From Zoroaster sp. YZ-2022 (lineage: Eukaryota > Echinodermata > Asteroidea > Forcipulatida > Zoroasteridae), in the NCBI GenBank assembly GCA_029582265.1, contig CM055817.1, positions 60,823,152-60,887,151 on the forward strand: 64,000 bases of DNA, read 5' to 3'. Positions 9,068 to 61,451 of the stretch are shown one piece after another. The position numbers and the translations under genes were made by a program. The notes beneath the pieces were generated by a model that searched no databases, was not told the DNA's origin, and saw only the letters and a list, made by a program, of their open reading frames with translations. How positions within the stretch are numbered: the stretch's first letter is position 1; each line of letters starts with the position of its first letter.

Positions 9068-10289
9068 TTATACTGTACTTTCAGCAGTGTTTTTGCCTCC
9101 CGTCATTTCATTATTTTGTGCATGTTTGTGTTTTGAAACTCTCTTGCTCAATGTGTCTAATGATTTCTTATTTTTTAGAACAGATTTGGGTTTCTTGCTC
9201 TTTGATCGCTGTTCCGATATAGACGTAAAAAGGGTGTATAGATACGGGTTCAGGGAGGAGTTTATGGGTAGGATAAAGACAACAATCCAGGCATACATGT
9301 CTGGACCGATTACTACCGCCCCAGACTGAGAAAGAATCCCCATGATGATCACAGGCATCCAGCATGCAAAATCAGTGCCAACTATGAATGCCATTTTGAC
9401 CGCCATTCTGATTTCCCGATCACGGTGAGCGGCCACGCGGACCTTTTTCGATGTGCGCTTGACTTCGACAAAAATTGCAAAGTAGCAGACGAACACTACC
9501 AGGAAACAGATGAGGTTGACACCAAGAAAGAGAATAATTGAGAAAATCCAGGCTGGCTTCTGACCTGTACCTACTGGGATCGATAAAGTCTGGCTCCAAA
9601 ATGGATTATCAATAGCGCCCTCTTTGACCTCGAAAGCGGTTGGTTTGGTGATGAGTGGTAGTCCAATGCACACATCGGATAAACCGTAGATATCCGAATC
9701 TGACCCACTACCAAAGACTGTTGGTCCAATACTCAAACCAAGTGATATTGACCAAATCACGAGTAGAACTAAAATGGTAGATGTCTTGCTTGGTTGCCTT
9801 GAGCTTAAAGGGTACACGATACCCCAGAAACAATATACACTTATAAGTGTGACAATAAACACAGACGCCTCGCACGACAAGACCGACAACACACCAGCTA
9901 TTTTGCATATCACACTTGACCGCCATTGCTTGGCCTCCGTTGAATACGTCTCACCAAAGTGTAGATCTGCTACCGCAATAATGAGCATATAAACACCCAT
10001 CATGAAGTCAGACACGGCTAGATTTAGAACCATAATTGAGTGACTTATTTTCGTGTTACGATTTCTATTTCGGGTCCCATGGCACTCCCTTGCTCTTTGG
10101 ACGATGACCACAACATTGCCGATGAGGGCGCTTATTCCAAGAACCCACATGAATACGCGGAGGAATGTGTTCCGCATGAGACTGCCACAGAGGTTCAATG
10201 GAGGTTGTAACTCAGTTGTCTCACATTGTGATATCATGAAGTTAGGTAAAGAAACAAACTCACAACAGAGTCTGTAGTCGTCCACGTAC
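9068..10289 (-). CDS. 7TM exon: hinge, rhodopsin-type transmembrane domain and cytoplasmic tail
   Basis: 1222 nt, phase 2 in, stop TAA at 9070-9068. Numbering from the V of VDDYRLCC: hinge cysteines at 7, 8, 21 and 33, then TM1 about 41-64, TM2 81-106 (NLAVSD), TM3 127-150, TM4 169-188, TM5 245-273, TM6 294-318 (CWMP), TM7 329-354 (NPYLY). C127 and C206 can form the TM3-ECL2 disulfide. The [13 protein letters not shown] segment of TM3 resembles LGR type C and relaxin receptors. Odd: the expected DRY-type motif after TM3 reads VYCFWG (151-152 are Y and C). The tail is Lys/Ser rich and ends ESTV, a possible class I PDZ ligand. Family role: G-protein signalling at the plasma membrane; ligand unknown. 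Confidence 0.93.

Positions 10290-61451: not shown

Follow-up and report, generated by a model that had tools for sequence, protein, structure and literature searches.

A Predicted Giant LGR-Type Receptor with a CUB/LDLa Arm and an Altered DRY Motif in the Starfish Zoroaster sp. YZ-2022

Introduction

The LGR type C1 receptors RXFP1 and RXFP2 combine LDLa, leucine-rich repeat (LRR), and seven-transmembrane (7TM) parts, and possess one LDLa module and no CUB module. The same three parts occur in the gene analyzed here, which lies on the minus strand of a 64,000-nt stretch of DNA (the window) from the starfish Zoroaster sp. YZ-2022 (GenBank assembly GCA_029582265.1, contig CM055817.1, positions 60,823,152 to 60,887,151) and is predicted to encode a giant receptor with a long extracellular arm of CUB and LDLa modules. 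Its rhodopsin-type 7TM part (Pfam 7tm_1, 6.3e-23) is directly preceded by an LRR ectodomain, as in LGRs, and the order LDLa-LDLa-LRRNT places LDLa N-terminal to the LRRs, as in LGR type C. Among the ten best solved structures for the 7TM part, RXFP1 ranks first (7tmw, 1.1e-37), followed by TSHR; LHCGR, FSHR, and 8w1z (named only by its 7TM profile) are also included. With 13 LDLa modules, the gene falls outside type C1 (RXFP/LGR3/LGR4), which is defined by one or two LDLa in passages of PMC11863921 and PMC8286064.

Many LDLa modules before the LRR and 7TM parts are also present in GRL101 of Lymnaea (LGR type C2), for which a passage of PMC8286064 gives twelve LDLa and six LRR. The window gene differs from it by the CUB array. 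In a 30-row tree, mollusc GRL101-like proteins grouped with RXFP1 and a hemichordate sequence (90/91), apart from the clade of the window gene, with RXFP1 and TSHR on long branches and Lymnaea GRL101 itself outside the set. “GRL101-like” is to be read as a database label, not as evidence of orthology. A CUB module in the ectodomain of a G-protein-coupled receptor is shared with ADGRG6 (GPR126; 6v55 is among the structure matches), which possesses a class B-type transmembrane part with GAIN/GPS. In the scanned parts of the window gene, GAIN gave no match, and 7tm_1 was found without any 7tm_2 match at E up to 1. The atypical decoy receptor C5aR2 (C5L2), with D-L-C at the DRY motif, lacks Arg at position 3.50, as does the window copy. 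In contrast to C5L2, which has no NPxxY and a short third loop according to a passage of PMC2697321, the window copy has an intact NPxxY. No description of CUB-bearing LGRs or of an Arg-less LGR clade was found in the titles, abstract openings, and passages of open-access LGR/GRL101 literature that were searched, subscription papers lying outside the search. One GRL101 orthologue per ambulacrarian species is reported in a passage of PMC8286064, and thus the CUB/LDLa starfish family was not counted there.

Gene Model and Module Order

Base-by-base checking of the minus strand from 61451 to 9068 gave a gene of 34 exons and 7650 nt that encodes 2549 residues with a single stop at the end. All 33 introns are GT-AG and the phases are compatible at every join; CUB and LDLa exons are of phase 1-1 and LRR exons of phase 2-2, while two CUBs are split 1-2/2-1. 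The modules, which were placed with Pfam, tblastn of relatives, and our own profiles, with splice sites and phases tabulated and the short LRR and half-CUB exons read by eye, follow the order signal peptide, CUB-d, LDLa, CUB-a, five repeats of LDLa-LDLa-CUB-a, CUB-c, CUB-b, CUB-c, CUB-b, LDLa, LDLa, LRRNT, five LRR, and 7TM. On balance, it is probable that one intact gene encodes this receptor, with 11 CUB and 13 LDLa modules in its arm, an LRRNT cap with five LRR, and an LGR-family 7TM part of altered output. An earlier sequence-only reading of the window had chained same-strand exons from a signal peptide to a 7TM exon in one frame and counted about 11 CUB and 13 LDLa modules. The chain and both counts hold, and the positions 61391, 54072, 41040, 20867, 15184, and 9068, which it had proposed to link by transcripts, are all exon ends of the model. 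Its coding sum of 7578 nt is 72 nt short; the missing part fits one overlooked 72-nt LRR exon, possibly exon 31. The exons and related features, all on the minus strand (-), are as follows.

61391..61451 (-), exon 1, signal peptide; a duplicated first exon lies at 4184-4247
54072..54431 (-), exon 2, CUB type d; profile comparison only, no Pfam match
53363..53476 (-), exon 3, LDLa
52162..52602 (-), exon 4, CUB type a copy 1
51666..51776 (-), exon 5, LDLa
51310..51420 (-), exon 6, LDLa
49982..50425 (-), exon 7, CUB type a copy 2; structure predicted
49430..49540 (-), exon 8, LDLa
49081..49191 (-), exon 9, LDLa
47752..48195 (-), exon 10, CUB type a copy 3
47223..47333 (-), exon 11, LDLa
46774..46884 (-), exon 12, LDLa
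45445..45888 (-), exon 13, CUB type a copy 4
44898..45008 (-), exon 14, LDLa
44556..44666 (-), exon 15, LDLa
43223..43666 (-), exon 16, CUB type a copy 5
42707..42817 (-), exon 17, LDLa
42340..42450 (-), exon 18, LDLa
41040..41468 (-), exon 19, CUB type a copy 6
~40007..40179 (-), broken CUB (type e) half-exon, outside the model; no donor in fitting phase
39236..39452 (-), exon 20, CUB type c copy 1, first half; Pfam CUB 2.9e-20 with exon 21
39016..39131 (-), exon 21, CUB type c copy 1, second half
33423..33782 (-), exon 22, CUB type b copy 1; Pfam CUB 6.9e-8
24307..24535 (-), exon 23, CUB type c copy 2, first half; Pfam CUB 2.9e-12 with exon 24
24098..24216 (-), exon 24, CUB type c copy 2, second half
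21974..22333 (-), exon 25, CUB type b copy 2; Pfam CUB 3.4e-8
21391..21507 (-), exon 26, LDLa
20867..20983 (-), exon 27, LDLa
15184..15304 (-), exon 28, LRRNT cap; similarity to relatives, no Pfam LRRNT match
14628..14705 (-), exon 29, LRR 1
14188..14259 (-), exon 30, LRR 2
12278..12349 (-), exon 31, LRR 3, 72 nt; adjoins a minisatellite
10906..10977 (-), exon 32, LRR 4
10576..10662 (-), exon 33, LRR 5
9068..10289 (-), exon 34, hinge, 7TM, and C-tail with stop; 7tm_1 match
9827..9835 (-), DRY-motif site Y-C-F; Arg3.50 to Cys, codon TGT 9832-9830
57722..57943 (-), broken SRCR exon in intron 1, outside the model; in-frame TAA, SRCR 5.8e-16
4184..4247 (-), signal-peptide first exon of the probable next head-to-tail paralogue

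Pfam recognized the b- and c-type CUBs and the LRRs (LRR_8, 7.5e-19), and gave no CUB match on the a- and d-types, whose identity comes from profile-profile comparison that was strong against broad CUB profiles and weak against a strict 12-row profile. In hhalign, the window CUB-a copies alone reached 97.6% and 93.0% against the broad c- and b-profiles, versus 2.0% at most when reversed. Joined by eight relatives, CUB-a reached 97.8% and 91.6% (4.7% at most when reversed), and CUB-d, joined by seven, 96.9% and 94.7%. Against the strict c-type set, CUB-a with relatives scored 89%; the 42% for the window CUB-a copies alone and 9% for CUB-d speak against the assignment. The a-type CUB is predicted, from the modeled structure, to possess the CUB beta-sandwich fold. 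All 13 LDLa modules have six cysteines, including the two before the LRRNT, which scored 18-21 bits in Pfam, under the 24.1 cut-off, and 10 of the 13 show the calcium-cage pattern in our own definition.

The model is a prediction from genomic sequence, and its weakest join is that between the signal exon and CUB-d: the 7 kb intron 1 contains the broken SRCR exon, and several relatives possess before the first CUB an extra N-terminal domain that was not found in the window. A candidate for that domain in intron 1 (55026-54958) was rejected, its best tblastn E being 0.057 with no other support, as was the best match of a hidden Markov model of the domain (E 0.6), outside intron 1 but in the window. 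The broken SRCR exon and the CUB half-exon are presumably the two broken exons that the sequence-only reading had set aside; SRCR, which that reading mentions beside CUB, does not belong to the working receptor, given the in-frame stop in its exon. Among the precomputed domains of the relatives P0121-P0152, no Pfam SRCR is listed. Past the stop codon, the first poly-A hexamers are ATTAAA at 8381 and AATAAA at 7663. The protein ends in -ESTV (9071-9082, minus strand), which we take to resemble a class I PDZ ligand and which is not kept in P0001 or P0121.

Relatives with the Same Architecture

A database search with residues 1595-2549 gave 93 proteins, of which the first 32 (P0121-P0152) were mapped. 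Eligible candidates had approximately 1402-4460 residues and were sought with words from the C-terminal part, a setting in which unfused genes could not appear. Among these long proteins, CUB, LDLa, LRR, and 7TM occur in one gene model in 32 of 32, with LDLa adjoining LRR in every one. The exact order d-L-a-L-L-e-L-L-c-b-L-L-LRR-7TM, in which the CUB subtype labels (a-e) are from our own profiles and L is LDLa, is present in 10 of them, four with further modules before it. The best long relative is from Patiria miniata, while the closest named relative of the 7TM exon, among the best 120 of 410 matches, is from Asterias amurensis (59%). P0121 (Patiria miniata LOC119725387) and P0122 (Acanthaster planci LOC110983163) possess the same modules in the same order as the window gene, are 51% identical over 90-91% of residues 1595-2549, and likewise lack Arg3.50 (D-S-F). 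In contrast to the window gene, with six CUB-a units and two c-b pairs, they have one of each; their e-type CUB is accompanied by two LDLa, whereas that of the window gene is broken with no LDLa after it, and P0121 has the extra N-terminal domain.

Further down the 93-protein list, the precomputed domains show CUB and some of F5/8C, C-type lectin, kringle, or EGF together with LDLa, LRR, and 7TM in echinoderms, Saccoglossus, Haliotis, and a coral. Many invertebrates thus have receptors of LGR type that are rich in modules. The database names of the relatives are GRL101-like, “CUB and sushi domain-containing protein”, or uncharacterized. The architecture is that of a family, not a one-off. The proposal of the sequence-only reading that this is one chimeric LGR-type gene is supported by the 7TM matches to RXFP1 and TSHR and by the fusion in the mapped relatives, all of them from the list of long candidates. 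A search with the N-terminal 500 residues, directed at unfused CUB/LDLa proteins, gave three matches and missed known fused relatives; it scored the 7999 candidates richest in shared words, which were probably generic LDLa proteins.

The same region could instead contain two adjacent genes. The first, from 61451 to approximately 21974, would encode a CUB/LDLa protein, either secreted or in the membrane, and the second, downstream of it, a smaller receptor of LGR type C (LDLa-LDLa-LRR-7TM). The intron between the last LDLa exon and the LRRNT exon is 5.6 kb long, and the short starfish gene models P0010 and P0022, which count against a fused gene, consist of LDLa-LDLa-LRR-7TM without CUB. When alternative starts and poly-A signals were sought in this intron, one weak signal-peptide-like start was found at 19431, with Lys and Lys-Arg in and after its hydrophobic run; the hexamers were uninformative, as their number (27; expected 19.3) exceeds expectation no more than in two other long introns (22 versus 14.6 and 25 versus 16.2). 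Given also the exon phases, which fit throughout, and the fusion in all mapped long relatives, though only long candidates were eligible, division into two genes is scarcely probable.

Loss of the DRY Arginine in a Starfish Clade

Few residues of class A receptors are as conserved as Arg3.50. In the window copy, helix TM3 ends in ISVYCFWG, in which Asp3.49 is replaced by Tyr and Arg3.50 by Cys (TGT, 9832-9830), so that the Arg of the canonical D/E-R-Y is absent, while NPxxY is present as NPYLY. Generic residue numbers were assigned by alignment with known motifs. Of 213 listed database proteins (the best 120 of 410 matches to the 7TM exon and all 93 from the search with residues 1595-2549), 190 satisfied the cut-offs and were aligned with the window 7TM. 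This gave 46 sequences without Arg at 3.50 (40 Cys, 6 Ser) and 145 with it; since the set was drawn around the window copy, 46/191 is not a population frequency. By name, 20 of the Arg-less rows are from Patiria miniata, seven from Acanthaster planci, three from Asterias amurensis, and 16 are others, including the window. Arg is kept in named rows from brittle star, sea urchins, sea cucumber, crinoid, acorn worm, molluscs, coral, and amphioxus.

In a FastTree analysis of 188 rows, with three short rows dropped and the three motif columns masked, the 46 Arg-less rows fell in one clade of 48 (support 99), and Arg was present in 140 of 140 rows outside it. IQ-TREE on 80 rows (all 46 Arg-less and 34 hand-picked of the 145 Arg rows) recovered the clade again (100/99) with at least three changes, the same in the bootstrap range, which may be read as one loss and two regains. 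The regains would be P0012 and P0085, nested in the clade with Glu-Arg-Phe; they stand against a uniform loss and appear to be reversions.

The remainder of the 7TM part is well preserved. In total, 73 columns have the same residue at 90% or more in both the 46 Arg-less rows and the 109 Arg rows nearest the window, and N1.50, D2.50, W4.50, C-W-x-P, N-P-x-x-Y, and the cysteines linking TM3 and extracellular loop 2 are at 100% in those Arg-less rows that cover the position. The sorting site aside, only four columns conserved in Arg rows are lost in Arg-less rows. Position 3.49 is acidic in 37 of 46 Arg-less rows versus 145 of 145 Arg rows (Fisher 1.4e-6, the rows being related and P only a guide). 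The alignments thus show Arg3.50 replaced by Cys or Ser in a starfish clade that kept the other core motifs and did not decay elsewhere in the 7TM part.

Growth of the Arm

Units 1-5, each of approximately 2.2 kb and consisting of CUB-a, LDLa, and LDLa with introns, are 92-97% identical. The closest pairs are units 2 and 4 (96.9%) and units 3 and 5 (96.5%), and therefore a two-unit block was probably duplicated; units 2-3 and units 4-5 are 96.8% identical along a 4.4 kb dimer (94.6-99.8% per 400 columns). The copies of the CUB-c/CUB-b pair are 81-85% identical and arose by an earlier duplication. The arm thus grew within the gene as a CUB-LDLa-LDLa unit and a CUB-CUB pair were duplicated in tandem, and six CUB-a copies stand here against one in the 10 relatives of fixed order (extra N-terminal modules in some aside).

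Near-identical halves are also compatible with a false assembly duplication, which would make part of the size an artifact, units 2-3 and units 4-5 being two haplotypes placed in tandem and the real protein having fewer modules. The identity is spread along the whole dimer, as allelic differences in a highly heterozygous animal could give, and a 500-N gap (32870-33369, inside an intron) shows that the assembly is scaffolded. In contrast, unit 1 (92-93% to the others), unit 6 (56%), and the CUB-c/CUB-b blocks, given their divergence, are unlikely to be allelic, and the minimum would still be 9 CUB and 9 LDLa. An artifact of this kind is possible but unlikely.

Pairwise ratios of nonsynonymous to synonymous substitution (dN/dS) ranged over 0.76-2.75 for CUB-a, over 0.20-2.96 for LDLa-1 (8 of 10 pairs gave a value), and over 0.08-0.35 for LDLa-2 (in 8 of 10 pairs the ratio was defined and above zero); the CUB-b pair had 0.87. 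Constraint thus appears for LDLa-2 only; that selection on each copy is not evident elsewhere is a point against the preferred reading, and for CUB-a, near 1, positive selection is not claimed. Together with the two broken exons (SRCR and CUB-e) and the further change of 3.49 to Tyr, these CUB-a ratios could indicate a decaying gene on its way to a pseudogene. However, 7650 nt are free of internal stops and frameshifts, the CUB-a exon lengths (441/444/429) differ by multiples of three, and LDLa-2 is constrained, which makes decay very unlikely.

Possible Ligand and Signaling Mechanism

LDLa modules typically hold basic residues via a calcium cage. Residues 21-1995 of the intact receptor (the array and the start of the LRRNT) contain 293 Asp and Glu versus 128 Lys and Arg, and 25 N-glycosylation sequons are found in residues 1-2174. 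According to a passage of PMC8286064, LDLa ligands are typically positively charged surfaces. Through many weak contacts, the acidic, calcium-caged LDLa/CUB arm may catch a basic ligand that is large or repetitive, and could deliver it to the LRR/7TM part; such a multivalent, calcium-dependent grip is the preferred mechanism, and a large or multivalent ligand, as the sequence-only reading proposed, is plausible. Loss of the DRY arginine suggests an unusual way of signaling, and with the loss of the Asp-Arg lock in the window copy, the output may be constitutive, arrestin-biased, or endocytic/decoy. An altered output is likely, loss of G-protein coupling being one option. The relaxin-receptor-like signaling proposed by the sequence-only reading is accordingly doubtful in the window copy, with Cys and Tyr in place of the DRY Arg and Asp. 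A passage of PMC6267866 describes, for the crown-of-thorns starfish, a GRL101-like gene that has six LDLa and is expressed more in sensory tentacles than in tube feet; it may or may not belong to the Arg-less clade.

Other receptors point in both directions on loss of coupling. Against it, RXFP1 itself has Lys at 3.50 (E-K-Y in the structure alignment versus Y-C-F in the window copy; the aligned chain is a Gs alpha fusion by entry name), and the viral receptor EHV2-ORF74 (DTW) signals through Gi without Arg according to a passage of PMC3414077, so Arg loss alone does not end G-protein coupling. In favor of it, a passage of PMC2697321 describes no productive G-protein coupling for C5L2 and reports that restoration of Arg raises G alpha 16 coupling, but C5L2 differs from the window copy in its missing NPxxY and short third loop. 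The gene may instead encode an ordinary G-protein-coupled LGR with an insulin/relaxin-like ligand, in which Cys3.50 is tolerated as Lys is in RXFP1. The core motifs kept throughout the clade (NPxxY, CWxP, D2.50, N1.50, W4.50, and the cysteine pair) are in line with this, while the invariant Arg outside the clade and the loosened acidic 3.49 within it are not; it is a substantial possibility, although short of probable.

Neighboring Sequence and Intron Contents

The regions 3933-7135 and 61146-63994, equally oriented, match each other in pieces that are 81-96% identical, and the former contains a second signal-peptide exon (4247 to 4184, minus strand). It is therefore probable that the next head-to-tail paralogue has its start there, at 4247, and extends beyond the window. 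The CUB-c1/CUB-b1 intron (33783-39015) harbors a PiggyBac-like transposase in two open reading frame (ORF) pieces (34878-36514, plus strand; DDE_Tnp_1_7, 8.4e-26 and 1.2e-31), the subfamily name being our own label. Remains of a hAT-type transposase (25822-28528, minus strand; Dimer_Tnp_hAT 5e-14, weak DUF659) lie in the CUB-b1/CUB-c2 intron. LINE-like pieces in introns comprise an RVT_1 ORF (37347-38057, plus strand, 5.7e-25) and a zf-RVT fragment (16448-16990, plus strand, 6.7e-8); the ORFs beside them, 15601-16299 and 38117-38425, had no Pfam match. A 33-bp minisatellite of approximately 46 copies (12376-13873) fills the end of an intron and stops approximately 26 bp upstream of the LRR3 exon.

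Significance of the Receptor Family

For starfish as a whole, a tentative picture can be drawn, still somewhat doubtful, of a large family of giant CUB/LDLa LGRs in which the DRY Arg was dropped once in the ancestor of the clade, followed by radiation; acidic multivalent arms would sort basic ligands or surfaces, and the 7TM part would work without classical G-protein activation, as an arrestin-biased, constitutive, or endocytic decoy receptor. The window receptor shows how an LGR ectodomain can grow by duplication of exon units. Furthermore, a clade with Cys or Ser at 3.50 in 46 of 48 sampled rows and with the rest of the 7TM part tightly conserved constitutes a natural experiment on the role of that residue, for which the Arg-bearing sister paralogues and the two apparent reversions are built-in controls.
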